From contig JANQKR010000013.1 in NCBI GenBank assembly GCA_028281025.1, positions 248,001 through 312,000 on the forward strand: a DNA stretch of 64,000 nucleotides. The letters run 5' to 3'. The translations under genes and the position numbers were made by a program. The first letter of the stretch is position 1, and every line of letters begins with the position of its first letter. Shown piece after piece: positions 1,298-18,357 of this stretch. This DNA is from Croceivirga sp. (GTDB lineage Bacteria > Bacteroidota > Bacteroidia > Flavobacteriales > Flavobacteriaceae). The notes under the pieces were generated by a model that had not been told where the DNA came from, did not search any database, and saw nothing but the letters and a program-made list of their open reading frames with translations.

Positions 1298-1321
1298 GGG
1301 TTTAGTTATGACCAATTCGTG

Positions 1322-1329: not shown

Positions 1330-1344
1330 TGCGGAAATAATTAC

Positions 1345-3033: not shown

Positions 3034-4083
3034 ATGGCTGAGCAACCTGTAAAAAACACTTCAGACGAAATAGACTTAGGACAATTGTTCCAATTGATTG
3101 GAAGAGGCTTTCAGAAGCTGTTCGATTTCATTGGATCGATTTTCAGCGGAATTTTTCATGCTATAATTACTTTTCTTCTTTTTCTGCAAAAGAATTTTGT
3201 TGTACTGACGATTGCCGTTGTTGTTGGTGCTGTTGGAGGGTTCTTGGCGGATATGTACAAAACCCCAAAGTATATTTCCAAAATGGTAGTGGAGCCCAAC
3301 TTTAACAGTGTACAACAATTATATAACAATATTGATTTTTACAATGACTTGGCCAAGGCCAAAGATTCATTGACGCTATCAAGGGTATTGGAAATTTCCG
3401 TTGGTGAGGCCGCTACCATAAAGAAAGTTTTTGTGGATTCGTATTCCGACGAAAATCAAAAAATTCAACTTTTTGATGAATTCATTCGAGAGTTGGACAC
3501 CACTACCGTAAAGGCACTGGACTACCAGAGTTATTTGGAGAACTTTAACTCCATGGATGCAAGGTTCCACCAAATATCAATAGTTGCCACTGATGATAGT
3601 ACTGCCAAAAAGGTCCAACCAGCGATTATTGCATCAATCTCGGCAAATGAATATTTTAAATTGCAAAAGCGAATAAATGATGAAAATTTGGATTTACAGG
3701 AAAATATCTATAACCAACAACTCTTAGAGATAGATTCGTTACAGCAATTGTACAAAAGGGTCCTTGAAAAAGAGGCCGGTAAGCCCATGCAAGGCACTAG
3801 TATAAACCTGGCTGAAAATGGAGGGGCTCAAAACAAAGAGTTGGAACTGGTACAAGAACGTGATATTTTAAAAGACCGACTCGTGGTATTGAACAAAGAG
3901 AGGGCAAACAAGACCTCGATTTTAAACGTTATCAGTGATTTTCCGGCAAGGGGGGTAAAACAGAAAGGATTTTGGAAGAGCTATAAGTTTGTTTCGCCAA
4001 TCGCATTTCTTGTACTGACAATTATTATGTTGGCGATAAGGAATTTAAATAGCTATTTAAAAGAATATCAAAAAAGCGAATAA
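3034..4083 (+). CDS. Wzz-like polysaccharide chain-length/export protein
   Basis: 349 residues. There is a hydrophobic stretch at about 31-50, a clear membrane helix at about 54-73, a long periplasmic region rich in charged helix (coiled coil around 200-300) and a second membrane helix near 317-337 followed by a short basic tail. This two-helix arrangement with a large periplasmic coiled coil is typical of Wzz/PCP chain-length regulators. No tyrosine-kinase domain is attached. It opens the polysaccharide locus, and pseB follows 15 bases later. It most likely controls the chain length of the polymer made by the downstream polymerase. The family is supported by topology and context rather than by a strong motif. 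Confidence 0.75.
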   Translation: MAEQPVKNTSDEIDLGQLFQLIGRGFQKLFDFIGSIFSGIFHAIITFLLFLQKNFVVLTIAVVVGAVGGFLADMYKTPKYISKMVVEPNFNSVQQLYNNIDFYNDLAKAKDSLTLSRVLEISVGEAATIKKVFVDSYSDENQKIQLFDEFIRELDTTTVKALDYQSYLENFNSMDARFHQISIVATDDSTAKKVQPAIIASISANEYFKLQKRINDENLDLQENIYNQQLLEIDSLQQLYKRVLEKEAGKPMQGTSINLAENGGAQNKELELVQERDILKDRLVVLNKERANKTSILNVISDFPARGVKQKGFWKSYKFVSPIAFLVLTIIMLAIRNLNSYLKEYQKSE

Positions 4084-4098
4084 AATATTGACAAAAAT

Positions 4099-5115
4099 AT
4101 GTTTTACGAGGGCAAATCTTTATTGATAACGGGAGGTACCGGTTCTTTGGGCAAAGCCCTTACGGATTATATCCTCACCAATCACTCTGAAATTAGGAGA
4201 CTTATTATTTTTTCCAGGGACGAGCAAAAACAATTTCAAATGGCTCAGGAGTATCCCATAGAAAAGTATCCTCAAATACGTTTTTTTATTGGTGATGTTC
4301 GCGATAAGGCCAGATTGATCAGGGCCTTTAAGGGTGTTGATTATGTAATTCACGCCGCGGCAATGAAACATGTGCATTTAGCGGAATACAACCCAGAGGA
4401 ATGCATCAAAACCAATATTGGAGGCGCCCAAAATGTTGTGGACGCCTCTTTTGAAACGAATGTTGAACGAGTGGTTGCGCTTTCAACCGACAAAGCTTGT
4501 GCCCCCATTAACTTGTATGGTGCAACAAAACTTACCTCGGACAAACTATTTATTGCGGCGAATAATATAAAGGGAAATAATCCAATTCGATTTTCAGTGG
4601 TTCGCTATGGTAATGTCATGGGTTCAAATGGTTCCGTCATACCGTTTTTTATAAAAAGAAAAAAAATAGACAACATTTTGCCCATAACCGATAAAAATAT
4701 GACTAGGTTCAACATTTCACTATCCGGTGGAGTAGACATGGTTATGCATGCTTTGGAAAATGCATGGGGAGGTGAATTATTTGTTCCTAAGATACCGTCG
4801 TATAGAATTTTGGATGTTGCAGAGGCCATTGGCCCGGAATGTGAAAAGCCTGTTGTTGGGATACGTCCGGGCGAAAAGATTCACGAAGAAATGATTACCC
4901 CTTCTGATTCCTTTTATACATACGACCTTGGCAAATATTTTGCCATCATCCCGTCTACACCAAATTGGAAGGTTGAAGATTTCATCAATGAATTTAAGGC
5001 TGAAAAAGTACCTCATGGTTTCAGCTACAATTCAGGCAACAATGACGAATGGGAGTCCGTAGAAGGATTGAGGGAATTGATTAAAACTCATGTTGACCCA
5101 ACATTTTTGATTTAG
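4099..5115 (+). CDS. pseB: UDP-N-acetylglucosamine 4,6-dehydratase (inverting), PseB
   Basis: 338 residues, a normal length for PseB/FlaA1. It catalyses the first step of pseudaminic acid synthesis: NADP-dependent 4,6-dehydration with C5 inversion of UDP-GlcNAc. The Rossmann motif T-G-G-T-G-S-L-G is at 11-18, an M-K-H segment at 89-91 and S-T-D-K at 129-132. The tyrosine of the SDR pair is Y140 with K144 (Y-G-A-T-K). D131, K132 and Y140 line up with the catalytic residues known in FlaA1. The stop codon directly abuts the start of pseC, and the product is the substrate of that aminotransferase. The assignment is strong because the whole pathway follows. Confidence 0.95.
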   Translation: MFYEGKSLLITGGTGSLGKALTDYILTNHSEIRRLIIFSRDEQKQFQMAQEYPIEKYPQIRFFIGDVRDKARLIRAFKGVDYVIHAAAMKHVHLAEYNPEECIKTNIGGAQNVVDASFETNVERVVALSTDKACAPINLYGATKLTSDKLFIAANNIKGNNPIRFSVVRYGNVMGSNGSVIPFFIKRKKIDNILPITDKNMTRFNISLSGGVDMVMHALENAWGGELFVPKIPSYRILDVAEAIGPECEKPVVGIRPGEKIHEEMITPSDSFYTYDLGKYFAIIPSTPNWKVEDFINEFKAEKVPHGFSYNSGNNDEWESVEGLRELIKTHVDPTFLI

Positions 5116-6267
5116 ATGGGCATTGATTCAATACCATATGGCAGGCAGAACATTGATGATTCAGATATTGAAGCGGTGGTTTCTGTTTTAAAGGCAGACT
5201 ATTTAACGCAAGGTCCCAAGATTTCGGAATTTGAAGAAGCCTTCGCTAGATATGTAGGTGCCAGATATGCAATTGCGGTAAATAACGCAACGGCAGGGCT
5301 TCATCTTGGTGTGATCGCTCTGGGATTGAAAAAGGGCGAACGAATTATAACCAGTCCAATTACATTTGCCGCCTCTGCCAATTGTGCCAGATATGTGGGC
5401 GCAGAGGTGTGGTTCGCAGATATTGACCCTAACACGTATTTGTTGTCATTGGAAAAAACCAGGGAACTTTTGGAAAGTAAGCCTAAAGGGTTTTTTAAAG
5501 GGCTGATTCCAGTTGATTTTGCCGGTCTTCCGGTTAATATGGAAGAATTCAGAAAGCTAGCCGATGAGTTCGATTTATGGATTATAGAAGATGCTTGCCA
5601 TGCGCCTGGCGGAGACTTTACCGACTCTTCTGGGAATAAGCAAATGTGCGGGAACGCGAATTATGCCGATATCGGGGTGTTCTCTTTCCATCCCGTAAAA
5701 CATATCGCTTGTGGAGAAGGGGGCATGATCACCACCAACAGCAAAGCTTTATACAAGAAGCTTTCCACTTTAAGGACCCATGGAATCACCAAAGAAAACA
5801 TGACGGAGAATCATGGTGGATGGTACTATGAAATGCAAGAGCTCGGATTTAATTATCGGTTAACGGACATCCAGGCCGCGTTGGGGATAACCCAGCTGAA
5901 AAAGAATCCCGAGGGGGTTATTAGGAGAAATGAAATTGCTACCAGGTACAAAAAAGCATTTCAAGGAAAAATAAAATACCAAGCCCTACCACCCAATTCT
6001 TATAATGCGCATCACCTTTTTGTAATTGAAGTGGAGAAAAGAGCAGAAATATATGAATATCTGAGAATGAACAAAATATATGTTCAAATTCATTATATAC
6101 CTGTTCACAGATTGCCGTATTTCAAAAAAATAGGATATTCCGATGCAGAGTTAAGCGATTCGGAGAATTACTATGAGAGGTGTCTTAGTCTTCCAATGTA
6201 TCCTTCATTAAGCCAAAAAGAACAAGATTATGTAATAGATAAAGTTTTGACTTTTGTTGAACACTAA
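5116..6267 (+). CDS. pseC: UDP-4-amino-4,6-dideoxy-N-acetyl-beta-L-altrosamine transaminase, PseC
   Basis: 383 residues of the DegT/DnrJ/EryC1/StrS aminotransferase family, fold type I and PLP-dependent. It aminates the 4-keto sugar made by PseB, using glutamate. The opening (I-P-Y-G-R-Q-x-I-x-x-x-D) and L-T-Q-G-P at 30-34 are typical of PseC. The acidic PLP contact is in E-D-A-C-H at 158-162, and the PLP lysine is expected at K195 in S-F-H-P-V-K-H. It starts immediately after the pseB stop and overlaps the next gene by 14 bases, so the genes are likely co-translated. Confidence 0.95.
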   Translation: MGIDSIPYGRQNIDDSDIEAVVSVLKADYLTQGPKISEFEEAFARYVGARYAIAVNNATAGLHLGVIALGLKKGERIITSPITFAASANCARYVGAEVWFADIDPNTYLLSLEKTRELLESKPKGFFKGLIPVDFAGLPVNMEEFRKLADEFDLWIIEDACHAPGGDFTDSSGNKQMCGNANYADIGVFSFHPVKHIACGEGGMITTNSKALYKKLSTLRTHGITKENMTENHGGWYYEMQELGFNYRLTDIQAALGITQLKKNPEGVIRRNEIATRYKKAFQGKIKYQALPPNSYNAHHLFVIEVEKRAEIYEYLRMNKIYVQIHYIPVHRLPYFKKIGYSDAELSDSENYYERCLSLPMYPSLSQKEQDYVIDKVLTFVEH

Positions 6268-7138
6268 AAAAATCATACTCGGAACAGTTCAGTTTGGCAT
6301 TAAGTATGGTATTAATAATATAAAGGGAAGGCCAAGCAAAAAAAGTGTTTTCCAAATTCTGGATAGGGCCTATGAATTGGGAATTCGTACGTTGGATACG
6401 GCAGAGGCTTATGGAGATTCTCATCGCATCATTTCAGAGTATCATTCAAGTTCAAACAATCGCTTTGAGATTATCACTAAATACTCTAGTTCTAGCAATG
6501 AACAAAACCCTATATTGATCAAGAGGGTAGACAATTTGCTCAATTTATTTAAGATTCAAAGGCTATATAGTTATATGTTTCATTCCTTTGAAGATTTCAT
6601 GGTCAACTATAATAAATTCCATGAAGAAATAGTACAACTTAAGCTTGATAACAAGGTTGGAAAGATAGGAGTTTCCATCTATTCTAATGAACAGATAGAA
6701 AAAATACTTTCTTTAGATTGTATTGATTTAATACAGCTTCCTTTTAATTTGTTGGATAATCATGACCAACGATACGAGATTTTGGATAAGGCAAAAAAGA
6801 AAGGAATGGAGATTCACACAAGGTCATCGTTCCTACAGGGCCTTTTTTTTAAAGACATCAAAGATTTAAGTGGGAATTTATTGGAATTAAAAGACGAATT
6901 GGAACAAATAGATACTTTTTGTAATTCCCATGAAATCTCCAAGCATGAATTAGCAATTAATTATCCCCTTTCAAAGAAATATGTCGATAAGGTTTTAATT
7001 GGAGTTGATTCCGTTGATCAATTAGAAAGTAATATTCGGGCAGTAAATACAATCATTGATTCTTCTGTTTTTTCTCAAATAGACAGGTTCAAAGTAAAGA
7101 ACAAGGACCTTTTAAATCCTTCAAAGTGGCAAATATAA
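6254..7138 (+). CDS. Aldo/keto reductase of the pseudaminic acid locus
   Basis: 294 residues starting at a TTG (6254; a second TTG follows at 6257). No ATG near this point fits, and the start lies inside the end of pseC. The AKR fold is shown by the opening I-I-L-G-T-V-Q-F-G, the catalytic set D-T-A-E-A-Y-G (Asp and Tyr), the Lys in I-T-K-Y and the His in Y-M-F-H-S, and by V-G-K-I-G-V-S further on. It is expected to be an NAD(P)-linked oxidoreductase. Similar genes occur in nonulosonic acid clusters of other bacteria, but I know of no proven role. It is followed by a Gfo/Idh oxidoreductase and an SDR, suggesting a redox tailoring step on a sugar intermediate. Confidence 0.85.
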   Translation: MLNTKKIILGTVQFGIKYGINNIKGRPSKKSVFQILDRAYELGIRTLDTAEAYGDSHRIISEYHSSSNNRFEIITKYSSSSNEQNPILIKRVDNLLNLFKIQRLYSYMFHSFEDFMVNYNKFHEEIVQLKLDNKVGKIGVSIYSNEQIEKILSLDCIDLIQLPFNLLDNHDQRYEILDKAKKKGMEIHTRSSFLQGLFFKDIKDLSGNLLELKDELEQIDTFCNSHEISKHELAINYPLSKKYVDKVLIGVDSVDQLESNIRAVNTIIDSSVFSQIDRFKVKNKDLLNPSKWQI

Positions 7139-8025
7139 AAGCGCGTAAAAAGTTAAAATTGGGGGTGATCGGGTTAAGTAAAGGGAATGGGCATCCATAT
7201 TCTTGGAGCTCTATTTTTAATGGTTTCAATGATAATTTTCATTGCCCTTTTGATGTAATCCCCCAATACTTGAAAAAGGAAAAATTTCCCGATTCTTTTC
7301 TTACGGATTTGGCTGAGGTGACGCATATTTGGACACAGTCCGATGAAATTTCCAATCAGGTCTCGGGTTTTTCGAAAATAGGAACCATAGTTAAAGAGAA
7401 AGAAGATTTGATAGATTTCGTCGATGCTGTTTTATTGGCCAGGGATGACGCAGAAAATCATCTGGAATTTGCCAAACCATTCATTGAGGCCAGAATGCCT
7501 ATTTTCATAGACAAGCCTTTAGCTTTTTCCCATAAAGATGCAGAGGAGATTTTTAAAATGGCAAAAGACGAAAATCAGATAATCTTTACCTGTTCCTCTT
7601 TAAGATTTGCAAAAGAATTTGATTTCGTTTTCACCGAAAACGAGTATGATTATGTTGAAGCTACGATAATGAAAGACTGGAACAAGTATGCCATACATAT
7701 TATAGAACCTGTAGTAAAAATGTTTCCTAAACGAGGAAAGCTAAGGGAAGTAAAAAGACTGATTACAGATAAAAACATTCAAAAAGTGCATGTCCAATGG
7801 TCCAATCTTACTGCAACGTTTACCGTTACAGGGGCTATTGAAGCCCCATTGCAAATATCGCTCTATGGGAAAAAGGGTCGTAAGAAATTGCTTTTTGAAG
7901 ATACCTTTTTTGCCTTTAGAGAGTCTTTGAGATATTTTATCCATTTTATTCATGGAAATAGGGAAAATTTCTCAAATACAGAGGTTTTAGAGATTATTGA
8001 GATTATTGAGAATGGAAACAAATAA
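7126..8025 (+). CDS. Gfo/Idh/MocA-type oxidoreductase
   Basis: 299 residues from a GTG start that overlaps the preceding gene by 13 bases. The N-terminus K-L-K-L-G-V-I-G-L-S-x-G-N-G-H is a Rossmann nucleotide-binding motif, and F-I-D-K-P-L-A-F around residue 127 is the E/D-K-P signature of the Gfo/Idh/MocA family. The second half is the usual alpha/beta substrate domain. Family members oxidise or reduce sugar hydroxyls with NAD(P). It is shorter than the usual 330-370 residues but shows no break. Its place between pseC and pseF makes a nucleotide sugar or nonulosonic acid intermediate the likely substrate; this is inference. Confidence 0.8.
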   Translation: MANIKARKKLKLGVIGLSKGNGHPYSWSSIFNGFNDNFHCPFDVIPQYLKKEKFPDSFLTDLAEVTHIWTQSDEISNQVSGFSKIGTIVKEKEDLIDFVDAVLLARDDAENHLEFAKPFIEARMPIFIDKPLAFSHKDAEEIFKMAKDENQIIFTCSSLRFAKEFDFVFTENEYDYVEATIMKDWNKYAIHIIEPVVKMFPKRGKLREVKRLITDKNIQKVHVQWSNLTATFTVTGAIEAPLQISLYGKKGRKKLLFEDTFFAFRESLRYFIHFIHGNRENFSNTEVLEIIEIIENGNK

Positions 8026-8791
8026 TTGTAAAACAATTGTTATTACCGGTGGCACAGGGCTTATAGGAAAACAACTGGTGGCTTGTCTTTTGAAAAAAGG
8101 ACACAAGGTGATAGTTACAACGAGAAATAAGAAGAAAAAAGAACGGCTTTTAAAAGAACGGGAAATAGATAGGTTAAAAAGCAATTTGTTTTTAATAGAG
8201 ATTGATTTTTTATCTAATGATTATCTCGAACGTTTTAGTGAATTCTTCGATAAGGAAAAAATACGTCCTGACGTTATAGTTCATAATGCACGATCATTAG
8301 ATACGTTGGCAATTAGGGAAGACGGCACCAGTTCAGTTGAAAATATTGTAGAAGAATTTAAACTAGGAGTAGCCATTCCTTACGAGATGACCTTTAAAAT
8401 TATAAATTCCGAGTACGGAAAAGACTTGAGAAACATAATTTTTATTTCCTCTATTTATGGTGTTGTGGCTCCTACGCCCAATTTATACGATGACTTTACC
8501 AGACAGTCCCCAATCCAATATGGAGTCACCAAAGCATCCCAAATCCATCTTACAAAAGAATTGGCTGTACGACTGGCGGATAAAAAAATCAGGGTGAATT
8601 GCATCTCATATGGAGGAGTAAAGGGGAGAGCACCCCAGGACTTTATCAAAAAATATAGCGCTCTCAATCCCCAAAGTAGAATGCTGGAGCTTAACGAAGT
8701 TGCAAACCCTTTAGAGTTTCTTGTGTCCGATAACTCATTAGGTATGACAGGACATAATTTAATATATGATAGTGGATGGACAATTTGGTAA
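8012..8791 (+). CDS. Short-chain dehydrogenase/reductase
   Basis: 259 residues from the ATG at 8012, overlapping the upstream gene by 14 bases. Classical SDR features are seen: T-G-G-T-G-L-I-G at 12-19, H-N-A-R (in place of N-N-A-G) at 91-94, catalytic Ser at 146/147 (I-S-S-I-Y-G), and Tyr170 with Lys174 (Y-G-V-T-K). The C-terminal D-S-G-W block is the usual SDR end. The end of the gene overlaps pseF by 16 bases. With the AKR and Gfo/Idh proteins before it, it may perform an oxidation/reduction pair, for example an epimerisation, on the sugar. The substrate is unknown. Confidence 0.85.
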   Translation: METNNCKTIVITGGTGLIGKQLVACLLKKGHKVIVTTRNKKKKERLLKEREIDRLKSNLFLIEIDFLSNDYLERFSEFFDKEKIRPDVIVHNARSLDTLAIREDGTSSVENIVEEFKLGVAIPYEMTFKIINSEYGKDLRNIIFISSIYGVVAPTPNLYDDFTRQSPIQYGVTKASQIHLTKELAVRLADKKIRVNCISYGGVKGRAPQDFIKKYSALNPQSRMLELNEVANPLEFLVSDNSLGMTGHNLIYDSGWTIW

Positions 8792-9495
8792 AAAATAAAA
8801 ATACAGTAGCAATAATTCCAGCTAGAGGAGGGAGTAAACGCATACCAAAAAAAAACATAATAGAATTTTTTGACAAACCATTAATAGCATATACAATTGA
8901 GGCGGCAATAGGGGCCAACTGTTTTGATAAAGTGATGGTTAGTACTGATTGTGAAGAGATAGCCGATATTTCCGTGTCTTATGGTGCAGAGGTTCCTTTT
9001 CTAAGAGAAGATAAGACAGATGATTTTTCTACTGTTAGTGAGGCTACGATATATACCTTGAATAGATTGCAAAAGGAGAAAGGGGAAAACTATGATACCG
9101 TATTTCAACTAATGGCAAATTGTCCCATAAGAGACAGTAATAACATTTTGGAATTTGGAGAGTATTTTTCTAAAAATGATTTAAACTTTTTGATAAGCTC
9201 ATTCGCTTTTGGATGGATGAATCCATGGTGGGCATTTAAGATTACAAAGAACAATACGTACATCAGGCTTTTTGAGGATGAAGCGGCTCAAAGAAGTCAG
9301 GACTTGGATAAGTTATATTGTCCTACCGGTGCAATTTGGGTGGCGAAAACAGAGGAACTTATTAAACAGGGCAGTTTTTATGGGGATGGTCATAGATTTT
9401 TTCCTTTGGATTGGAAGTCTGCTATTGATATAGATGACTACGAGGATTTAGAAATGGCAAAAGCAGTTTTCATTTTAAAAAATAAAATGATTTAA
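8776..9495 (+). CDS. pseF: CMP-pseudaminic acid synthetase (cytidylyltransferase), PseF
   Basis: 239 residues. It activates pseudaminic acid with CTP to give the CMP-sugar donor. The nucleotide-binding motif I-I-P-A-R-G-G-S-K-R-I-P-K-K-N is at about 13-27, followed by typical S-T-D and M-A-N-C-P-I-R-D blocks of the CMP-NeuAc synthetase family. W-M-N-P-W-W and the D-I-D-D near the C-terminus fit the PseF subgroup. Its stop and the pseG start share a base (TAATG). Confidence 0.93.
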   Translation: MDNLVKNKNTVAIIPARGGSKRIPKKNIIEFFDKPLIAYTIEAAIGANCFDKVMVSTDCEEIADISVSYGAEVPFLREDKTDDFSTVSEATIYTLNRLQKEKGENYDTVFQLMANCPIRDSNNILEFGEYFSKNDLNFLISSFAFGWMNPWWAFKITKNNTYIRLFEDEAAQRSQDLDKLYCPTGAIWVAKTEELIKQGSFYGDGHRFFPLDWKSAIDIDDYEDLEMAKAVFILKNKMI

Positions 9496-10478
9496 TGCCG
9501 AAAAAAAACGTTTTTTTTAGAGCGGATGGGAATTCCGAAATAGGCTTGGGGCATATTGTACGCTCCTTGGCACTAGCAGATATGCTTAAAGATGATTTCA
9601 ATTGCATGTTTGCAACCCGTTTTGCCGATCAATATGTAAAGGATGAAATAGCAAAAACATGTACAAATTTCATCAAACTAAATGAAGACGGCAACTTTCA
9701 TTTGGAGGAATTTCTTGCTTACGTACCTCCGGGAGATATAGTGGTTTTGGATAATTATTTTTTTAGCACCGATTATCAAAAAGAAATCAAGAAAAAGGGG
9801 TGCAAACTGGTTTGTGTGGATGATATGCATAACAAACATTATGTAGCGGACTTTGTAATAAATCATGGTACAGGTCAAAAAAAGGAAAACTTTAGTATTG
9901 AACCCTACACCAAGTTATTGTTAGGGCAAGATTATGCCCTTCTACGAAAACCTTTTTTGGATATTGCACATAGAAAACGAACCAAATTGGAACGTTGTCT
10001 GGTTTGTATTGGCGGAGCGGACACCTATAATCTAACGACATTTGTTGTAACCGAATTGGAAAAGTTAGGACAGATCAAGATTGTTGATATTGTTATTGGT
10101 CCCGCGTTTTTGCATGAAAGCAAATTAAACGGTGCAATATCAACCAGCACTAAAGAAATCAATGTTTTGAAAGGACTTTCAGCATCGGAAATGGCACAAA
10201 GTATGCAAATTGCGGATTTTGGCGTTTTTCCTGCAAGTTCGGTCAGTTTTGAGGCAATGGCAGTGGGACTTCCTTTCTTAGTCGGGTATTATGCCGAAAA
10301 TCAGAAGGAGCAGTATTTCAACATGACCAAGAAAAATCCAGAAATAGGGTTAGGCTACATGAGAGAAATGAAAAGAGGTATAAAGATAAAAAGTAGCTTA
10401 CTTAATCAAGATAGAATAGACATAAATTTGTATTCTGAAATCCCCAAAAGATATATCAAAGCATTTAAATCATTATGA
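9495..10478 (+). CDS. pseG: UDP-2,4-diacetamido-2,4,6-trideoxy-beta-L-altropyranose hydrolase, PseG
   Basis: 327 residues with the GT-B-like fold of PseG, which removes UDP from the N-acylated intermediate before condensation with PEP. The start R-A-D-G-N-S-E-I-G-L-G-H contains the conserved Asp11 and the catalytic-type His20, and G-G-A-D-T with P-A-S-S-V-S-F-E-A-M-A-V-G-L-P further on is the UDP-binding region. It overlaps pseF by one base and the GNAT gene by 4 bases (ATGA). Length and motifs are normal. Confidence 0.93.
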   Translation: MPKKNVFFRADGNSEIGLGHIVRSLALADMLKDDFNCMFATRFADQYVKDEIAKTCTNFIKLNEDGNFHLEEFLAYVPPGDIVVLDNYFFSTDYQKEIKKKGCKLVCVDDMHNKHYVADFVINHGTGQKKENFSIEPYTKLLLGQDYALLRKPFLDIAHRKRTKLERCLVCIGGADTYNLTTFVVTELEKLGQIKIVDIVIGPAFLHESKLNGAISTSTKEINVLKGLSASEMAQSMQIADFGVFPASSVSFEAMAVGLPFLVGYYAENQKEQYFNMTKKNPEIGLGYMREMKRGIKIKSSLLNQDRIDINLYSEIPKRYIKAFKSL

Positions 10479-11032
10479 CATCTGAACCCCCAATTATAAT
10501 CGATGGATATACCTTAGTCAACTACGTTGATTTAACTTTGGAGCAAAAAAAGGAGGTTTTGACGTATAGAAATCATGAGGAAGTAAGAAAATGGATGTTG
10601 GACAACGCTATTATTTCATTGGAGAATCACTTGTCTTTTGTTGATGCGCTGAAGAATGATAAGTCTAAGCTTTACCATGCAGTTATTAAAGAAGACCTAA
10701 TAATAGGATGTATTTACATTGTGAACTGGAATGAGCAAATTAAAAAAGGGGAATGGGGGTGTTTTTTGAATCCCACTTATTTTGGATTAGGATTGCGTTT
10801 GGGATTTGTTTTTATTAAGTGGGTTTTTGGAAGATTGTCCGCAAAGGTAATACTGGCAAGTGTCCATAAAGAAAATATTACCGCAATACAGTTAAATGAA
10901 ATACTAGGATTCAAAAAGATAGAAGAGGATAACCCTCATTGGATTTATCGATTAAATCGTAATTCTTGGAATGAGATACCTTCAAATTATAAGACGTTCA
11001 TAAAAAACTTAAATAAAAACAATAATGAGTAG
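10475..11032 (+). CDS. pseH: GNAT-family N-acyltransferase, PseH-like
   Basis: 185 residues of the GNAT fold. T-Y-R-N-H-E-E-V-R-K-W-M near the N-terminus is the characteristic R-N-H-x-x-(I/V)-R-x-W-M stretch of PseH, which acetylates the 4-amino group of the pseudaminic acid precursor. The usual acyl-CoA loop is modest (G-L-G-L-R-L-G near residue 108). Directly downstream, overlapping by 8 bases, is an acyl carrier protein, then an SDR and an acyl ligase, so the acyl donor here may be an acyl-ACP other than acetyl. The PseH-type assignment is good; the acyl group is a guess. Confidence 0.85.
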   Translation: MTSEPPIIIDGYTLVNYVDLTLEQKKEVLTYRNHEEVRKWMLDNAIISLENHLSFVDALKNDKSKLYHAVIKEDLIIGCIYIVNWNEQIKKGEWGCFLNPTYFGLGLRLGFVFIKWVFGRLSAKVILASVHKENITAIQLNEILGFKKIEEDNPHWIYRLNRNSWNEIPSNYKTFIKNLNKNNNE

Positions 11033-11321
11033 AGGTGCAAATAAATTAGTGATGCAAGTACTGGGTGATTTTCTAAATGAGGAAAATATTGTATTTGATG
11101 GAAAGCTAACAGAAGAAACCCGTTTGTTTGGAGGTGATGGTATGCTGACGTCCATTCAATTGGTAATGTTCATTACCAGTTTGGAAGAGGAGATAGAGGA
11201 TGAATGGGATGTGATGTTAACCTTGGCCGATGAAAAGGCAATGTCACGTAGGGTAAGTCCTTTTTCTTCGATAAAGTATTTGGCAGATTATATTGAAGAA
11301 AAGATAAACGAATATGAATAA
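11025..11321 (+). CDS. Acyl carrier protein of the nonulosonic acid locus
   Basis: 98 residues, acidic, with the four-helix layout of ACPs. The phosphopantetheine serine is expected at S43 in M-L-T-S-I-Q-L-V, aligned with the D-S-L motif; here Asp is Thr and Leu is Ile. F-I-T-S-L-E-E-E-I-E-D-E after it corresponds to helix II of ACPs. It is a specialised carrier rather than fatty-acid acpP, which normally sits beside fabF. It overlaps the GNAT upstream and the FabG-like SDR downstream by 8 bases each. It probably carries an acyl group loaded by the AMP ligase two genes on. Confidence 0.85.
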   Translation: MSRGANKLVMQVLGDFLNEENIVFDGKLTEETRLFGGDGMLTSIQLVMFITSLEEEIEDEWDVMLTLADEKAMSRRVSPFSSIKYLADYIEEKINEYE

Positions 11322-12021
11322 TAGGCCCAGGGTTATTGTAATTACGGGAAGCAGAAAAGGAATAGGGCGTTTTTTAACAGAGCACTATCTTGAATCGGGT
11401 GACATCGTTGTTGGTTGTAGTCGCTCTAAGACGGACTTAGAGCATGATAAATACACTCATTTTATTTTAGATGTTTCCGATGAAATAGCGGTAAAAAGAA
11501 TGGTTTCCTCTGTCAGAAAATTATTCTCTACCATAGATATTTTGATTAATAATGCCGGAATGGCATCCATGAATCATTTTTTATTAACACCTAAGGCCAC
11601 GGTTGAGAAGTTGTTTAGCACTAATTTTACAGGGACCTTTTTATTTTCTCGTGAAGTTGCGAAACTAATGTCCAAGAAAAAGAAAGGCAAAATCGTTAAT
11701 TTTTCTACAGTAGCGGTTCCATTAAATTTGGAAGGGGAAGCGGTATATGCGGCTTCCAAAAGTGCAGTGGTATCATTAACCAAGATTTTAGCCAAAGAAG
11801 TTGGGGAAATGGGAATTACCGTAAATGCTGTAGGTCCAACTCCCGTGTATACGGATTTAATAAAAACAGTTCCAAAAAATAAGATTGGGGAATTGTTGAA
11901 CCAACAAGCCATAAAAAGATTAGGGACCTTCGAAGACGTATTAAATGTGATAGAGTTTTTTATAAATCCTAAAAGTGAATTTATTACTGGACAAGTAGTC
12001 TATCTTGGAGGGGTAAGTTAA
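11314..12021 (+). CDS. FabG-like SDR (probable 3-oxoacyl-ACP reductase)
   Basis: 235 residues. Classical SDR motifs: T-G-S-R-K-G-I-G at 11-18, N-N-A-G at 79-82, Ser131 and Y145-x-x-x-K149 (Y-A-A-S-K), and G-Q-V-V-Y-L-G-G at the end, as in FabG proteins. Because it lies between an acyl carrier protein and an acyl-adenylating ligase, a role in reducing a 3-oxoacyl-ACP to a 3-hydroxyacyl group is likely. An alternative is a sugar reductase. The family is certain; the substrate is inferred from position. Confidence 0.85.
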   Translation: MNNRPRVIVITGSRKGIGRFLTEHYLESGDIVVGCSRSKTDLEHDKYTHFILDVSDEIAVKRMVSSVRKLFSTIDILINNAGMASMNHFLLTPKATVEKLFSTNFTGTFLFSREVAKLMSKKKKGKIVNFSTVAVPLNLEGEAVYAASKSAVVSLTKILAKEVGEMGITVNAVGPTPVYTDLIKTVPKNKIGELLNQQAIKRLGTFEDVLNVIEFFINPKSEFITGQVVYLGGVS

Positions 12022-12026
12022 AATCA

Positions 12027-13352
12027 ATGAGAAGACAGTTTCAAAATTACACTGATAGAATAGCAATAGTTTCTGAAGGTAAAAAGTATGATTTTCAGAC
12101 CTTAAATCAAGAAGTTCTGGATAAGTTGGATCGTATTTCTCGTTACAATATAGCGAAAGGCGAAACGGTTCTTCTTTTGGGAGACTATTCGTTTGAGGCA
12201 ATTTCTTGGCTGATTGCATTGTATGAAAACAAGAATATTGTAGTCCCCGTTACTACAAGCGTACAAACGGAAATTGATGAACGTATTGAAGAAGCCCATG
12301 TTGATGTCATTGTTGATTTAAGACAGGACAAAGTTATTAGAACAAATAATACAAGGGAGAAACACGATTTTATACGTAATCTGCAGACGAACAATAACAG
12401 TGGGCTTGTAATATTTAGTAGTGGCAGTACTGGTAGACCCAAGGCGATGGTCCATAATATGGATCAACTAATTTCGGTTTATTTAAATAAACGTCCACGA
12501 AAGGTTACTTTTCTGGTCTTTTTGATGTTTGATCATATTGGAGGTTTGAACACTTTGTTCAATTGTCTATCTACTGGTGCGACCATAGTAATCCCTGCTA
12601 AAAGGGAACCTGAGGAAATCTGTAGACTTATTGAAGATTTTAAGATAAATATTTTGCCTACCTCTCCTACTTTTCTGAATTTAATGCTAATGTCAGGATG
12701 TATAAACAACTATGACCTGTCCTCGTTAAGAATGATTACGTATGGTACGGAAGCCATGCCGGAGAGTCTACTGATTAGATTAAAAGTTGCATTTAAAAGG
12801 GTTAAGTTTTTACAAACTTTTGGAACAAGTGAAACGGGAATCATCAAAACTACCAGTCAATCTTCATCTAGCACTTTCATAAAATTGGAAGACCCAGATC
12901 AAGAACATAAGATTGTGAACGGGGAATTGTGGTTGCGAAGTAAAACCCAAATTATGGGCTACATGAATCATTCAATGGAAAATTTCACCAAAGATGGATG
13001 GTTTAAGACAGGAGATATTGTGGAAAAAGAAGGGGATTATATAAGGATTAAGGGCAGATTAAAAGAGGTAATTAATGTTGGTGGAGAGAAAGTACTTCCA
13101 ATAGAAATCGAGGGAACATTACTTTCCCATCCGGATGTTATAGACTGCACGGTCTATGGTGAAGAAAACCTTATTACAGGCCAAACGGTGGTTGCCAACG
13201 TGCGGATTTTGGAGGGATCGGACAAAAAAGATGTCCGCAAAAAATTGCGTGCTTATTGCAAAACCAAGTTGGAACCCTATAAAGTGCCGACAAAATTTAA
13301 TTTTGTAAGTAACACGGATTATACGGAAAGATTTAAAAAATCTAGACCATAG
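12027..13352 (+). CDS. AMP-dependent acyl ligase (ANL superfamily)
   Basis: 441 residues. The P-loop S-S-G-S-T-G-R-P-K is at 131-139. Further on there are Y-G-T-E-A-M (A4/A5-like), T-F-G-T-S-E-T-G, K-T-G-D-I with I-K-G-R-L-K-E, and I-N-V-G-G-E-K-V that ends the core. The C-terminus is short (E-R-F-K-K-S-R-P). It adenylates a carboxylic acid and passes it to a thiol, most simply the acyl carrier protein two genes upstream, since no separate carrier domain is fused. It begins 5 bases after the SDR. The acid is not predictable from the sequence by eye. Confidence 0.88.
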   Translation: MRRQFQNYTDRIAIVSEGKKYDFQTLNQEVLDKLDRISRYNIAKGETVLLLGDYSFEAISWLIALYENKNIVVPVTTSVQTEIDERIEEAHVDVIVDLRQDKVIRTNNTREKHDFIRNLQTNNNSGLVIFSSGSTGRPKAMVHNMDQLISVYLNKRPRKVTFLVFLMFDHIGGLNTLFNCLSTGATIVIPAKREPEEICRLIEDFKINILPTSPTFLNLMLMSGCINNYDLSSLRMITYGTEAMPESLLIRLKVAFKRVKFLQTFGTSETGIIKTTSQSSSSTFIKLEDPDQEHKIVNGELWLRSKTQIMGYMNHSMENFTKDGWFKTGDIVEKEGDYIRIKGRLKEVINVGGEKVLPIEIEGTLLSHPDVIDCTVYGEENLITGQTVVANVRILEGSDKKDVRKKLRAYCKTKLEPYKVPTKFNFVSNTDYTERFKKSRP

Positions 13353-13394
13353 GCTTAAAACATATTAATTGAAAGAAATAGAAGAGATATTGTT

Positions 13395-14081
13395 TTGATA
13401 TATAAAGGCATAAACATAATTCTTACAGAAAAAGAGTGGAATTCAAATCTTGTAGAAAAGCTTTCTGTTAAAGTTCCAAGTATAAAGTGGGTCTTAATTT
13501 CTGACAAAAAGGAATTTACGGTTGAGACATTAGCCAAGATTTCTCCAGATTTTGTTTTTATTCCACATTGGTCCTACATCATTCCCAAAGAAATTTACGA
13601 GAATTATGAATGTGTTGTTTTTCATATGACCGATTTACCTTATGGTCGAGGAGGTAGTCCTTTGCAAAATCTTATAGTAAGGGGGAAAAAGGCAACCAAA
13701 ATTTCGGCTTTGAAAGTAGGCGCTGGAATTGATACTGGAGACATTTATTTAAAGAAGGAATTGTCCTTGGAAGGAACGGCAAAAGAGATCTTTGAGAGAT
13801 CTAGTATAGTAATAGAAGAGATGATAGAAGAAATAATAGACAAAAATTTAAACCCCATTCCACAACAAGGAGAAGAAGTTAAGTTTAAAAGGCGCAAACC
13901 GGAACAAAGCGATATCTCAAATCTGAAAAGTTTAAACAAGGTTTATGATTATATACGTATGTTAGATTGCCCTGGATATCCAAAGGCTTTCTTGAAAACG
14001 GAAAATCTCAGATTTGAATTTGATAGTGCAATTCTCAAAGGTGAAGAGATTATAGCAAATGTTAGAATCACTACGAAATAA
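13395..14081 (+). CDS. Formyltransferase-family protein (probable sugar N-formyltransferase)
   Basis: 228 residues from a TTG at 13395; an in-frame stop at 13356 limits upstream extension, and no ATG is near. The core V-V-F-H-M-T-D-L-P-Y-G-R-G-G-S-P-L matches the H-x-S-x-L-P-x-x-x-G-x-x-P block of 10-formyltetrahydrofolate-dependent formyltransferases. H77 and D113 (I-D-T-G-D) fit two members of the Asn-His-Asp catalytic triad. The Asn two residues before the His is replaced by Val75, which is odd. It ends 23 bases inside the PIG-L gene. It probably formylates an amino sugar freed by that deacetylase. Confidence 0.8.
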   Translation: MIYKGINIILTEKEWNSNLVEKLSVKVPSIKWVLISDKKEFTVETLAKISPDFVFIPHWSYIIPKEIYENYECVVFHMTDLPYGRGGSPLQNLIVRGKKATKISALKVGAGIDTGDIYLKKELSLEGTAKEIFERSSIVIEEMIEEIIDKNLNPIPQQGEEVKFKRRKPEQSDISNLKSLNKVYDYIRMLDCPGYPKAFLKTENLRFEFDSAILKGEEIIANVRITTK

Positions 14082-14775
14082 AAAAATACTGATTGTTGTA
14101 GCTCATCCTGACGATGAGCTTTTGGGTTTGGGGGCGAGTATGAATCGCTTAATTGCCGAATTTAATATTGAAACCCGAGTCGTAATTCTTGGAGAAGGGC
14201 TTACTTCCAGAAGTGAGAATAGGGATGTTGATAAGTGGAAAAAAGAATTAGAGGTACACCGTCAGAATATACAAAGCGCACAACAAGCCATAGGTTATAA
14301 TTCCGTGGGCATATATGATTTCCCGGACAACCGTTTTGACACAGTTCCCCTTTTAGATATTGTTAAGGTTATAGAGAAAGAAAAGGAACAGTACGGGCCG
14401 GAAGTGATTTTTACGCATCATGGTGGAGATGTTAATATTGATCACCAGTACACTTTTGAGGCCGTAATTACGGCCTGTAGACCAATGGAGCATGAAGATG
14501 TTAGCACTATTATTACATTTGAAACCCCTTCGGGTACGGAATGGAGAGCGAGTGTTGATCCCAAACATTTTATTCCAAATTTTTTCATAGAGGTATCTAA
14601 AGATAATTTAGCCGCAAAGATAAAAGGGATGGAATCGTATGAATTTGAAAAAAGAAAATTCCCTCATCCTAGATCACCAGAGGCATTGGAAATTCAAGCA
14701 CAACGATGGGGTGTGGCTGTAGGTGTAAATTATGCCGAAGCTTTTAATATAGTTAGACAAATTGAAAAAAAATGA
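14059..14775 (+). CDS. PIG-L (LmbE-like) deacetylase
   Basis: 238 residues. The zinc motif A-H-P-D-D-E is at 15-20, and T-H-H-G-G-D-V-N-I-D-H-Q near 117-128 supplies the second histidine set. PIG-L proteins remove N-acetyl groups from GlcNAc-type substrates. It overlaps the formyltransferase by 23 bases and pseI by 4 bases. In this setting it could strip an N-acetyl from the nonulosonic acid precursor so that a formyl or other acyl group can be added. The activity is well supported; the substrate is inferred. Confidence 0.88.
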   Translation: MLESLRNKKILIVVAHPDDELLGLGASMNRLIAEFNIETRVVILGEGLTSRSENRDVDKWKKELEVHRQNIQSAQQAIGYNSVGIYDFPDNRFDTVPLLDIVKVIEKEKEQYGPEVIFTHHGGDVNIDHQYTFEAVITACRPMEHEDVSTIITFETPSGTEWRASVDPKHFIPNFFIEVSKDNLAAKIKGMESYEFEKRKFPHPRSPEALEIQAQRWGVAVGVNYAEAFNIVRQIEKK

Positions 14776-15794
14776 GAAATAGCATATTCATAGTAGCGGA
14801 ACTGTCCGCCAACCATGGAGGAAGTATCGATACTGCTATCGAAACTATAAAAGCAGCCAAACGCAGTGGCGCTGACGCCATCAAACTACAGACGTATACT
14901 GCAAATACAATGACACTGGACTGCGATAAGGAGGATTTTATCGTAAAAGGAGGTACCCTCTGGGACGGCGAAACACTTTATGATTTGTACAAAAGGGCAT
15001 ATACGCCTTGGGAATGGCATGAGAAACTTTTTAAAGCGGCCAAGGAAGAAGGGCTTGTATGTTTTTCAACTCCTTTTGACAAACAGGCTGTTGATTTTTT
15101 GGAAAGCATAGATAACCCTATATATAAAATAGCTTCTTTTGAAATTCAGGACATTCCATTGATTGAGTATACCGCAAGTAAAGGAAAGCCTATTATTATG
15201 TCTACAGGGATTGCTTCCTATGAAGACATTGCATTAGCTGTTGAAACCTGCAGAAATGTTGGAAACAACGATATTACGATTCTTAAATGTACTTCATCAT
15301 ATCCAGCACCAATCGATCAGGCGAATTTGGTAATGATGCAACAATTTGTCAAAGATTTCAATGTAAAGGTGGGTTTATCTGACCATACAATGGGCAACAC
15401 TGTTCCAGTAGTGGCAATAGCCTTGGGTGCGCGGGTAATAGAAAAACATTTTATTTTAAACAAATCGATTGGTGGGCCAGATGCCGATTTTAGCTTGGAT
15501 GAAAGGGAATTTACCGAAATGGTAAATGCCGTACGTGCTGCCGAATCCTCTTTAGGAACAATTTCTTATGAGTTGACCGAGAAACAAGTTAAGGGTAAGC
15601 GATTCGCGAGAAGCCTTTATGTTGCTGAGGATGTAAAAAAAGGGGATGTTATAAGTGAAAAAAACATAAGATCCGTAAGGCCCGGTTTTGGGTTGCACCC
15701 AAAGTATTTAAAAGAAATTCGGGGAAAAAAATTTAATCAAGATGTGGAAAAAGGTACGCCCCTAAGTAGGGATGTTTTTTCTTGGGCCGATTAA
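14772..15794 (+). CDS. pseI: Pseudaminic acid synthase, PseI
   Basis: 340 residues. It condenses 6-deoxy-AltdiNAc with phosphoenolpyruvate. The NeuB TIM-barrel opens with A-E-L-S-A-N-H-G-G at about 9-17, followed by G-A-D-A-I-K-L-Q-T-Y, S-T-P-F-D, K-I-A-S-F-E, S-T-G-I-A, G-L-S-D-H-T and E-K-H-F-I-L. The SAF domain occupies the last 60 residues (R-S-L-Y-V-A, R-P-G-x-G-L-x-P). The A-N-H, not G-x-N-H-N, start fits PseI rather than NeuB. It completes the CMP-pseudaminic acid pathway within this locus. Confidence 0.95.
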   Translation: MRNSIFIVAELSANHGGSIDTAIETIKAAKRSGADAIKLQTYTANTMTLDCDKEDFIVKGGTLWDGETLYDLYKRAYTPWEWHEKLFKAAKEEGLVCFSTPFDKQAVDFLESIDNPIYKIASFEIQDIPLIEYTASKGKPIIMSTGIASYEDIALAVETCRNVGNNDITILKCTSSYPAPIDQANLVMMQQFVKDFNVKVGLSDHTMGNTVPVVAIALGARVIEKHFILNKSIGGPDADFSLDEREFTEMVNAVRAAESSLGTISYELTEKQVKGKRFARSLYVAEDVKKGDVISEKNIRSVRPGFGLHPKYLKEIRGKKFNQDVEKGTPLSRDVFSWAD

Positions 15795-15827
15795 TTGGGT
15801 TCTATAATATTTGGTTTTGTTTTTTCG

Positions 15828-17078
15828 ATGATAAATACCATGAGAGTTCGACCATTACTTAATTTATTCATTAGGGGTATTTCGTTGGCACTCAAATTTT
15901 GTTTTGTTATTTTTTTAGGGAAATTCTCTCAAGATGAAACTAATTTGGGAATTTATGGGATTTTTAACTCGGCATTGGGATATGGCATCTATATTATTGG
16001 ATTTGAGTATTACGTTCAAGTTGCCAGAAGTATATACGAAAAAGGAAGAACACTTGAGTATAATGTCAAAAATCAACTTTTTTTTTATAGTGTTTCCCAT
16101 TTAGTTTTTGTTCCTCTTATTCTAATAGCTGTTTTTGGCAATGGGTTTTTAGAAATTTCTTATTTGTGGATTTTCATTGCCGTACTGGTTGCGGAACATT
16201 TGTCTCAGGAATGTTTTAGGCTATTGTCAGCATTAAAAAGACCAATAGGGGCAAATATTGTTCTTCTAATCAGAAACCTTTGGATACTCATTTCCTTTTT
16301 TGACTTTTTGACTTCCAGAAAAATTGAATTAGTTGTTTATTTTAAATATTGGATATTAAGTTCCACAATCGGTCTTGTAGTGGGCATTCTTTTTTTAGGA
16401 AAACATCTGAAGATAAAAACTTTTTTAAGCGAGAAAATCGAATTTAAGAGTATAAAAAAAGGAATAGGCACTTCTATTTTCTTTTTTATCAGTTCTTTGA
16501 GTATTCAGACCATTTTATTGTCAGGGCGATTTTTTCTTGATTTTTCTTTTGACAAAAAAATAGTTGGGGTGTACACTTTTTATTCTAACATAGTCAACCT
16601 AATTGAAGTAGTCATCTACAACTTGGTTGTTATGATGCTTTTTCCATATCTATTGGAGAGTGCAAATCAAAAAAAGGAAGAGTTTAGGAAGTATTCCATG
16701 ATAATAAAAAAAAAGATAATTGTACTAACAATAGTATGTACAGGAATTATAGGCTTGGGCATGCCTTTTTTGGTTAACTTTCTGGATAAGACTTTGGCAT
16801 CTGATAATTTATATACTTTTTACGTTTTATTGCTTGGTGCAACTTTTTACAACTTTTCCCTTATTTCACATTACATTCTGTATGCGCTTAGCAAGGATTT
16901 GTTCATTTTAAGGTCGGCGGTTTTCGCTGTGGCCATAAACATAATCATAAATTTTATTTTCGTCCCATCTAAAGGCTTATTGGGAGCTTGTTTGGCTTTT
17001 ACAATTTCCATGGTAGTTTTGTTAATTAGCAAAGAAAGGTTCAAAAGAAATGTGTTTTATGAAAATTTTGGTAGTTGA
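15828..17078 (+). CDS. Polysaccharide flippase (Wzx-like)
   Basis: 416 residues from the ATG at 15828 (M-I-N-T-M-R-V-R-P). A TTG at 15795, directly after pseI, is an alternative start that would add 11 residues. The protein is highly hydrophobic, with about 10-12 membrane segments spread along the length and short basic loops, typical of the MATE/MOP exporter group that contains Wzx O-unit flippases. No soluble domain is present. It probably moves the lipid-linked repeat unit containing the pseudaminic acid derivative to the periplasm. The call rests on topology and context. Confidence 0.75.
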   Translation: MINTMRVRPLLNLFIRGISLALKFCFVIFLGKFSQDETNLGIYGIFNSALGYGIYIIGFEYYVQVARSIYEKGRTLEYNVKNQLFFYSVSHLVFVPLILIAVFGNGFLEISYLWIFIAVLVAEHLSQECFRLLSALKRPIGANIVLLIRNLWILISFFDFLTSRKIELVVYFKYWILSSTIGLVVGILFLGKHLKIKTFLSEKIEFKSIKKGIGTSIFFFISSLSIQTILLSGRFFLDFSFDKKIVGVYTFYSNIVNLIEVVIYNLVVMMLFPYLLESANQKKEEFRKYSMIIKKKIIVLTIVCTGIIGLGMPFLVNFLDKTLASDNLYTFYVLLLGATFYNFSLISHYILYALSKDLFILRSAVFAVAINIIINFIFVPSKGLLGACLAFTISMVVLLISKERFKRNVFYENFGS

Positions 17079-18357
17079 GAGCAGATCAAACGTATTCATA
17101 TGGGATAAGGTTTTTGGTGATGATTTCATTGAAAATATAGAAGTGCACTATTTGATTTTCAATACTTTCTTCGCTGCTAAAAATGGTATTAACCACTTTA
17201 TTTCATATGGTGAATGTGAAGATTCAAAAGTCGAGGTGCCGATTCAGTTTGACAGACAAAGAAATTTCTTTAATTCCCCAAACACCAAGCATTACGGGTT
17301 TTATGAGGAAAAGATTTCTAATAAACTAAAAGAGATCAACCCCAATTTGGTAATAGGAGAAGCAGCTTCTTTTCAAGATTTTCTGACTATCAAGGCATGT
17401 AGGGAAATGGGAGTAAAACATTTTAACCCAATGACAAGTAGGTATCCTAAAAATAGATTTTGTTTCTACAAGGAGGATACTTTAATCCCATTTCTCGGGT
17501 CTAAGGAAGAAATGTCAAAGGATGAACTCAATAAGGAGTTTGAAAGGATTGTTGGGAGAAGGTATGTGCCAGATTATATGATAAAGAAAAACTATAGGCT
17601 AAGACTTGGTCAAAGATTAAAGGATTTGTGGATTAAGCTCCAATCCTATTATAGCAATGACCCAAATACGCCTTCTCCACTTTATTTTGTAAATAGGACT
17701 TTGAAGTTAAAAACAGTAAAAAAGGCTTGGATACAAAAAAGTACCAAAACCATATCAAAAAATGGAGAAGGGCTTTATGTGCTCTACCCCATGCAAATGC
17801 AGCCAGAATCCAATATAGACGTATATGGACACCCATACAGCAACCAATTTGAACTAATTCAACAAATCTATGATAACCTGGAAGAATGGGATGTTTTGAT
17901 AATTAAACCCAATCCCAAACCATTTATGGAATTATCGATGGAGGTTGTTGATTTCGCTGAAAAAAATGATAGGATTATATTGCTCCCTTTTACATTTCCA
18001 ATGACTGAGGCATTCAAAAGTGCAGACTTGATCATTACCGTTACAGGGACGGTTTCCATTGAAGCAATATTATCAAATAAACCAGTAGGAGTATTTAAAA
18101 AAACATACTTTAATACAACGAAGAACTGTGTTCAATTAAGTTCTTTCCAAGACTTATCCCCATTAATAGAGAAGGTAAGAAATGGGAACTACCAACCTAT
18201 GACAGAAGAGGAAAGGAAGACACACCTAAGCATGTTGAACAAAGTGAGTTATCAAGGAAGAATTTCGCCCGTTAATTTAAATGCCGAAGAAGTAAGCCAG
18301 ATACAAAAAAGTTTTAAATCTTTTTTTGACGATTTCAGGGAGCAATCTTTCAACTAA
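17059..18357 (+). CDS. Capsule-type glycosyltransferase, candidate nonulosonic acid transferase
   Basis: 432 residues from the ATG at 17059 (an ATG at 17050 adds three residues). The C-terminal half has Y-P-M-Q-M-Q-P-E-S, H-P-Y-S-N-Q-F-E-L, I-I-K-P-N-P-K, and T-V-T-G-T-V-S-I-E-A-I-L-S-N-K-P-V-G-V-F. These match the conserved blocks of the KpsS/KpsC-like and related GT-B capsule transferases, which handle CMP-Kdo and similar donors. It overlaps the flippase by 20 bases. With a complete CMP-pseudaminic acid pathway upstream and no other obvious transferase for it, it is the best candidate for adding that sugar. That role is inferred. Confidence 0.7.
   Translation: MKILVVESRSNVFIWDKVFGDDFIENIEVHYLIFNTFFAAKNGINHFISYGECEDSKVEVPIQFDRQRNFFNSPNTKHYGFYEEKISNKLKEINPNLVIGEAASFQDFLTIKACREMGVKHFNPMTSRYPKNRFCFYKEDTLIPFLGSKEEMSKDELNKEFERIVGRRYVPDYMIKKNYRLRLGQRLKDLWIKLQSYYSNDPNTPSPLYFVNRTLKLKTVKKAWIQKSTKTISKNGEGLYVLYPMQMQPESNIDVYGHPYSNQFELIQQIYDNLEEWDVLIIKPNPKPFMELSMEVVDFAEKNDRIILLPFTFPMTEAFKSADLIITVTGTVSIEAILSNKPVGVFKKTYFNTTKNCVQLSSFQDLSPLIEKVRNGNYQPMTEEERKTHLSMLNKVSYQGRISPVNLNAEEVSQIQKSFKSFFDDFREQSFN

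Follow-up and report, generated by a model that had tools for sequence, protein, structure and literature searches.

A 64,000-nucleotide stretch of Croceivirga sp. DNA (GenBank assembly GCA_028281025.1, contig JANQKR010000013.1, forward-strand positions 248,001 to 312,000; hereafter the window) contains a complete pseudaminic acid (Pse) cluster. Inside it, genes for an acyl carrier protein (ACP), a short-chain dehydrogenase/reductase (SDR) and an AMP-dependent acyl ligase form a portable cassette, which is stacked with a second module of a formyltransferase and a PIG-L deacetylase. We lean towards the view that these are two acyl-tailoring modules in one Pse pathway, the first supplying an acyl-ACP for N7 and the second placing a formyl group on N5. 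The ligase would activate a short acid with ATP and load it onto the ACP, and the SDR would set the 3-oxo/3-hydroxy state of the ACP-bound acyl group. The cassette-linked PseH would then move this group to the 4-amino group of UDP-4-amino-4,6-dideoxy-L-AltNAc, the future N7 of Pse; our guess is a C4 group such as 3-hydroxybutyryl. The PIG-L protein would strip the 2-N-acetyl group (N5 of Pse) for the formyltransferase to formylate the freed amine, and PseG, PseI and PseF would yield a CMP-Pse with an N5 formyl and a longer N7 acyl group, destined for a surface polysaccharide. From sequence comparison we infer each of these reactions, an acyl-ACP rather than an acyl-coenzyme A (CoA) donor, the identity of the acyl group, the nitrogen served by each module and the order of steps.

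What the sequences show directly is which genes are present, that the modules recur, that linked PseHs form a branch apart and that residues of PseH have changed. A sequence-only reading of the window had placed pseH, ACP, SDR, ligase, formyltransferase and PIG-L genes between pseG and pseI, and we recovered this set gene for gene on the (+) strand. It had also described the surrounding pathway as complete, and all six pseBCFGHI genes are indeed present, five of them above their NCBIfam cut-offs and PseF below its own. The cluster occupies 4099-15794 on the (+) strand, with a flippase-like gene and then a capsule-type gene downstream, and includes the following genes.

4099..5115, + strand: pseB, UDP-GlcNAc 4,6-dehydratase (inverting); TIGR03589, 492 bits (cut-off 408)
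5116..6267, + strand: pseC, aminotransferase; TIGR03588, 462 bits (cut-off 423.5)
8776..9495, + strand: pseF, cytidylyltransferase; TIGR03584, 177.6 bits, under the cut-off of 205.7 yet its best match
9495..10478, + strand: pseG, UDP-sugar hydrolase; TIGR03590, 197 bits (cut-off 154)
10475..11032, + strand: linked-type pseH, candidate N-acyltransferase from acyl-ACP to the 4-amino group; TIGR03585, 94.5 bits (cut-off 93.1); in the linked branch, with A69, C79, W94 and N141
11025..11321, + strand: acyl carrier protein, phosphopantetheine Ser43; no Pfam match, Ser43 in 71/71 cassette ACPs, weak profile matches to ACPs in the PDB
11314..12021, + strand: FabG-like SDR, proposed 3-oxo/3-hydroxyacyl-ACP oxidoreductase; PF00106, 6.4e-45; between ACP and ligase in 65 of the best 80 loci
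12027..13352, + strand: AMP-dependent acyl ligase, proposed ACP loader; PF00501, 2.4e-36; at least 80 relatives in a genome scan
13395..14081, + strand: formyltransferase of the 1zgh type, TTG start, candidate enzyme for formylation of the amine that PIG-L would free; PF21553, 7.6e-24; PF00551, 1.2e-7; 1zgh, 246.5 bits
14059..14775, + strand: PIG-L/LmbE deacetylase, candidate for removal of the 2-N-acetyl group; PF02585, 7.8e-20 (above the gathering cut-off); adjoins the formyltransferase in 7/7 loci
14772..15794, + strand: pseI, pseudaminic acid synthase; TIGR03586, 518 bits (cut-off 340.25)

The overlapping order described earlier for 10475-15794 holds at most junctions but not between SDR and ligase or between ligase and formyltransferase, which lie 5 nt and 42 nt apart. 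Pfam or NCBIfam models back every gene of this interval save the ACP. By itself, the window ACP matched no Pfam family, PF00550 (PP-binding) included, and NCBIfam gave a single match, to an ACP model, at a weak E of 0.067; 5 of 29 relatives matched PF00550. A profile of 29 cassette ACPs found 15 PDB sequences at E ≤ 1, all of them weak matches, 12 of which are named acyl or D-alanyl carrier proteins; the best, 2lki, is annotated as 'putative uncharacterized' (E 0.0027). Ser43, already singled out as the phosphopantetheine serine, sits at the conserved place and is serine in all 71 aligned cassette ACPs. Because of this invariance and the PDB carrier proteins found by the profile, the window protein can be regarded, by comparison, as a real carrier protein.

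Recurrence of the ACP-SDR-ligase cassette

Scanning genomes with a ligase alignment gave at least 80 related loci; more exist, and the counts below refer to the best 80. ACP and this SDR type lay no more than four genes from the ligase in 68 of them, and in 65 the exact ACP-SDR-ligase order was kept on one strand, in many phyla. Over 68 rows the three proteins diverged together (Mantel r 0.72, 0.69 and 0.70; 0/1000 permutations as high for each). A chance neighbourhood of ACP, SDR and ligase is therefore rejected by both the shared order and the correlated divergence.

We counted ten marker families in a neighbourhood reaching from about nine genes before to seven after the ligase. DegT aminotransferases were found at 27 loci, PseH-like proteins at 15, ketoacyl synthase III (KAS III) at 14, NeuB/PseI at 11, PseG together with PseH at 10, CmlS-like proteins at 8 and PglD-like proteins at 7, and 29 loci had none of the ten families. 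All 10 loci with PseG and PseH are labelled Campylobacterota, and other cassettes adjoin other amino-sugar genes or CmlS-like halogenases. The sequence-only reading had taken the ACP module to be dedicated to nonulosonic acids, an idea that these counts reject: the triad lies mostly apart from pse genes and regularly occurs with another known product, beside CmlS-type halogenases. The proposed mechanism is untouched by this. Among directly flanking genes (94 scanned of 103 listed), the Pfam domains met most often were GNAT (9), DegT (6) and KAS III (6), followed by hexapeptide transferases (5) and the CmlS C-terminal domain (5), the GNAT count not being independent, as about ten of the 94 scanned genes are the linked PseHs themselves. 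This neighbourhood looks as would be expected of an acyl-thioester supply for amine acylation. It is conceivable, though we hold it only tentatively, that the cassette is a portable acyl-S-ACP donor for unrelated amine-acylating pathways (Pse, other nonulosonic acids, amino sugars and chloramphenicol), read in Pse by an acyl-ACP-dependent PseH subfamily.

The ordered set does recur beside pse genes in other genomes. One other locus, L026 on a contig of a Sulfurimonas metagenome-assembled genome, combines the five genes with pseB, pseC, pseF, pseG and pseH; pseI is not visible there because the contig ends behind the ligase. We surveyed 249 genomes from the phylum to which L035 (Aliarcobacter) belongs, in which PseH scored above the NCBIfam cut-off in 160 and a ligase match at ≤1e-90 was present in 39. 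Twenty ligase regions were read, and four of them, from further genomes (L214, L216, L217 and L219), have pseBCF, G, I and H followed by ACP-SDR-ligase, with PseH directly before the cassette amid the pse genes; in L218 (genome of L050) a PseH-like gene stands behind it. Since the pse-locus ligases need 5 label changes in our quick ligase tree, compared with a shuffled mean of 10.5, the cassette may have entered pse loci more than once.

A chance or decaying insertion, in a strain that makes plain di-N-acetyl Pse, would accord with the distribution among kin: across 149 genomes (window genome included) no other had the ACP (E ≤ 1e-3), and the ligase had a match in two others only, at 29-30% identity. 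We nevertheless consider this highly improbable, as the window frames are all open and tightly packed, and the same order recurs in many phyla together with a branch of linked PseHs.

Some loci differ in their surroundings. On Burkholderia and Bradyrhizobium plasmids (L007 and L008), the order is ligase-SDR-ACP, directly before a large multidomain SDR/polyketide-synthase gene. Six Chloroflexota cassettes (L083, L085, L086, L092, L094 and L095) are followed by one recurrent family of ∼500 aa, and at L027 two APS-kinase-like genes (3333-4696) lie between pseB and pseC.

The cassette-linked PseH branch

The sequence-only reading had proposed that ligase, ACP and SDR supply the PseH-like GNAT, and our comparisons support this; the best evidence is that cassette-linked PseHs appear to branch separately and to have an altered donor site. 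A first PseH tree contained 65 rows, nine fragments shorter than 115 aa and four duplicates of genomes already included having been dropped, and grouped the 17 linked PseHs (window included) with three others (support 98/86). In a second tree, from which nine further long or odd rows were removed, the 17 linked PseHs and L205 made up one side of a branch (support 100/97), and the linked label required 2 changes compared with a shuffled mean of 14.8 (0/500 as low). As for the three additional rows of the first group, L205 adjoins SDR, AMP ligase, LuxE and LuxC genes, L202 lies near an ACP-like gene and KAS III, and no ACP/SDR/ligase-type set was seen in the surroundings of L203.

The linked type also stands apart by score. 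Of 11 genomes whose pse locus includes the cassette, only two had a top-scoring PseH above the TIGR03585 cut-off. L223 holds both types (at 1942-2376 and 9289-9798), a canonical copy in the pse operon and a linked copy next to ACP-SDR-ligase. The canonical copy scored 152.8 bits with the canonical and 76.7 with the linked profile, and the linked copy, which was absent from profile building, 146.9 bits with the linked and 31.5 with the canonical profile. The cassette-ACP profile detected no ACP within 1.5 kb of canonical PseH at any of 30 loci, although it missed an ACP of another type in L202 and L234.

For Helicobacter pylori PseH, Tyr138 has been proposed as general acid, the acetyl group is contacted by Leu91, Leu125 and Glu126, and a docked model places Arg30 and His49 among the predicted acceptor contacts (PMC4363471). 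By alignment, the window equivalents are N141 (Tyr138), W94 (Leu91), A128 (Leu125), S129 (Glu126), R32 (Arg30) and H52 (His49). The window protein thus shares GNAT homology and a presumed acceptor with this canonical enzyme, keeping Arg30 and His49, but differs at Tyr138 and Leu91. The general-acid tyrosine, lost in the window PseH, is present in 30/30 canonical rows. Sixteen of the 17 linked rows have N or D at position 141; all 17 have W at 94, A at 69 and one of G, S, A or C at 79, and both predicted acceptor contacts (R32 and H52) are kept throughout. In linked PseHs, the acceptor site therefore looks kept and the donor site changed.

Several observations count against a donor switch to acyl-ACP in this branch. 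The canonical CoA-side residues W40, M41 and G106 are kept in the window PseH, residues that most linked rows have lost: G106 and W40 each occur in 1/17 (the window) and M41 in 9/17. A69 is shared by several unlinked rows, N141 by the unlinked L190, and L024, L026 and L027 have Leu at 128, as canonical PseHs do. The window PseH sits on a long branch; by path length in the second tree its closest row is the canonical L146, with which it also shares its highest identity (34%). Once L205 is set aside, the best tree does not unite the linked rows in a clade; such a clade is not rejected (p-AU 0.17). Finally, the canonical control comprised the 30 best-scoring rows, a biased choice that 17 lower-scoring rows were added to offset.

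FdhC, which uses 3-hydroxybutanoyl-CoA, is the second-best PDB match of the L026 PseH (E 8e-8). The linked PseH might likewise take a hydroxyacyl-CoA, the ACP cassette serving another acceptor of the same polysaccharide. W94 with a non-Tyr residue at 141 also occurs in FdhC and in the unlinked pse loci of Sinorhizobium meliloti Rm41 and Acinetobacter baumannii L241 (all H141), and no ACP gene was seen in the stretches of these two loci. W94 with a non-Tyr 141 hints at a hydroxyacyl group and not at ACP dependence, and G106 of the window PseH also favours a CoA donor. Furthermore, the A. baumannii psaABCGHF module, a pse pathway with a longer N7 acyl group as proposed for the window, yields N7-(R)-3-hydroxybutanoyl Pse and differs in that 'carrier protein' does not appear in the available text of the report (PMC9676051). 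We still judge a CoA-dependent linked PseH unlikely, because linked PseHs have N or D, rather than H, at 141 and occupy a branch of their own that goes with the cassette, and because in L223 the linked PseH accompanies the cassette while a canonical copy stays in the operon.

Two cases fit the residue rule awkwardly. Sinorhizobium fredii CCBAU 45436 (L240) has a canonical-type PseH with Y141, and strain HH103 is reported to carry N7-hydroxybutyryl Pse. Rm41 has W94/H141, and its K antigen is reported to bear N5-hydroxybutyryl and N7-acetyl groups (PMC9037385). These cases may reflect strain differences, differing assignments or an incomplete rule.

The formyltransferase–PIG-L pair and neighbouring genes

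The deacetylase and formyltransferase had been read as a pair that swaps an acetyl for a formyl group, and their distribution is consistent with this. Formyltransferases of this type occurred in 5/375 genomes searched (window genome included), and the gene adjoins PIG-L in all seven loci found (window, L014, L026, L249, L250, L251 and L252). The pair is separable from the cassette because, on the Synechococcus plasmid L014, it sits between pseH and pseI in a pse cluster where no ACP gene was seen. L250, L251 and L252 have pse genes around it, and L249 stops at a contig edge; a second formyltransferase-like gene is close by in L249, L250 and L251. PIG-L without this formyltransferase was found in L217 and L020. 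On the simplest reading, the pair would serve one nitrogen, acetyl off and formyl on. Known PIG-L enzymes act on 2-acetamido sugars, and that nitrogen would be N5 of Pse. One feature of the formyltransferase does not sit well with this role: the Asn of the N-x-H motif is catalytic in sugar N-formyltransferases, and the motif is carried by 4iqf, but the window protein has V-F-H instead, and aligned 1zgh-type members have V, C or I for Asn.

The two positions could also be swapped, with formyl on N7 and the ACP-derived acyl group on the N5 amine freed by PIG-L. PseJ-type formyltransferases act at N7, which favours such an arrangement, as do the N5 hydroxybutyryl of Rm41 and the PIG-L gene of L217, which lies directly before PseH and the cassette. 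Set against these are the kept acceptor-site residues of PseH, an N4 transferase, and the formyltransferase-PIG-L pairs without a cassette in L014, L250, L251 and L252, though L250-L252 show GNAT-like domains. We regard swapped positions as quite unlikely and retain the proposed assignment of the ACP-derived acyl group to N7 and of formyl to N5.

Between pseC and pseF (6254-8791) the window encodes an aldo-keto reductase (AKR), a Gfo/Idh-type oxidoreductase and an SDR. EpaA/EpaB make 8-epipseudaminic acid and have AKR and SDR domains beside a cytidylyltransferase (PMC12053666); the window has these as separate genes (6254-9495), a likeness in domain content. In view of this resemblance, the window Pse may also be epimerised at C8. 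A comparison of the SDR at 7997-8791 with a phage collection gave 6 records, all partial, and led nowhere. Upstream of the polysaccharide cluster (109-3030) are genes for a GH3-like protein and a DUF6909 protein.

Relatives of the cassette in published systems

The chloramphenicol cluster of Streptomyces venezuelae has the order cmlM (ACP), cmlJ (SDR), cmlK (ligase), cmlS (halogenase) and cmlT (aldo-keto reductase); in 2014 the roles of the dichloroacetylation genes were called obscure, and deletion of cmlJ abolishes chloramphenicol production (PMC4249514). The ACP-SDR-ligase order is the same as in the window and the proteins are homologous, as compared via the CmlS-linked relatives L074, L077 and L096. 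In L074 (Micromonospora), a CmlS orthologue that matches 3i3l nearly end to end (1085 bits) comes after the cassette relative, along with an AKR. CmlS-linked L077 and L096 share with the window 43-46% identity in the SDR, 44% in the ligase and 32-38% in the ACP. Given the CmlS orthologue beside the L074 cassette, the Pse and CmlS-linked cassettes are therefore, on sequence grounds, relatives. The chloramphenicol cluster differs in its halogenase partner, absent among the window genes annotated from 4099 to 18357, and in its acceptor. Our C4 guess is weakened by an older speculation that CmlK adenylates an aromatic acid (quoted in PMC4249514) and by a review naming malonyl-CoA as the proposed CmlS substrate.

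The gene set had been put forward as undescribed, which published gene lists do not support. Aeromonas group II polar-flagellin islands list an ACP (orf1), a 3-oxoacyl-ACP reductase (orf2) and an AMP-dependent synthetase (orf3) with pseBC and pseFGHI, and assign orf1-orf3 to fatty acid synthesis (PMC7874193). By gene list, ACP, SDR and ligase lie beside pse genes as in the window; the island additionally has luxE, luxC and many glycosyltransferases, and no formyltransferase is named in the available part of that account. Neither luxE nor luxC is among the window genes annotated from 4099 to 18357. Enterobacterial flagellin islands similarly list Acp, FabG, CaiC, LuxE and LuxC. Within our limited literature collection, the available portions of the Aeromonas (PMC7874193) and enterobacterial accounts contained no proposal that the ACP feeds PseH, nothing was found on viosamine with an ACP, and nothing useful on FdhC. 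A Pse derivative of 376.14 Da in A. piscicola AH-3 fits acetyl plus dihydroxybutyryl (376.148 calculated) and equally two lactyl groups; we did not count it as evidence.

A published precedent is Flavobacterium psychrophilum wfpC-wfpG, where a dedicated ACP and ketoreductase are suggested to feed an N-acyltransferase whose acceptor is a UDP-4-amino sugar; the acyl group there is known to be 3,5-dihydroxyhexanoyl (PMC6519341). That system, as described there, differs from the window in having ketoacyl synthases in place of the ligase, a PglD-type transferase and another sugar. ACP-fed N-acylation of UDP-amino sugars as a proposal, and the gene set as listed in Aeromonas, are thus already known; the new elements, as judged from the comparisons above, are a cassette-associated PseH branch and the relationship of this cassette to the CmlS-linked one.

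If the proposed donor role is true, one cassette, probably handling a C4 3-hydroxy or 3-oxo acid, would explain unusual N-acyl groups of nonulosonic acids, and the same cassette would explain the first dichloroacetyl steps of chloramphenicol, in which acetoacetyl-ACP would be chlorinated and then cleaved. A sequence rule combining PseH type with a neighbouring cassette would predict which bacteria make unusually acylated Pse, cases that plain PseH annotation hides. Unexplained glycan acylation would in this way be linked to the dichloroacetylation genes of chloramphenicol, with one small cassette informing both.

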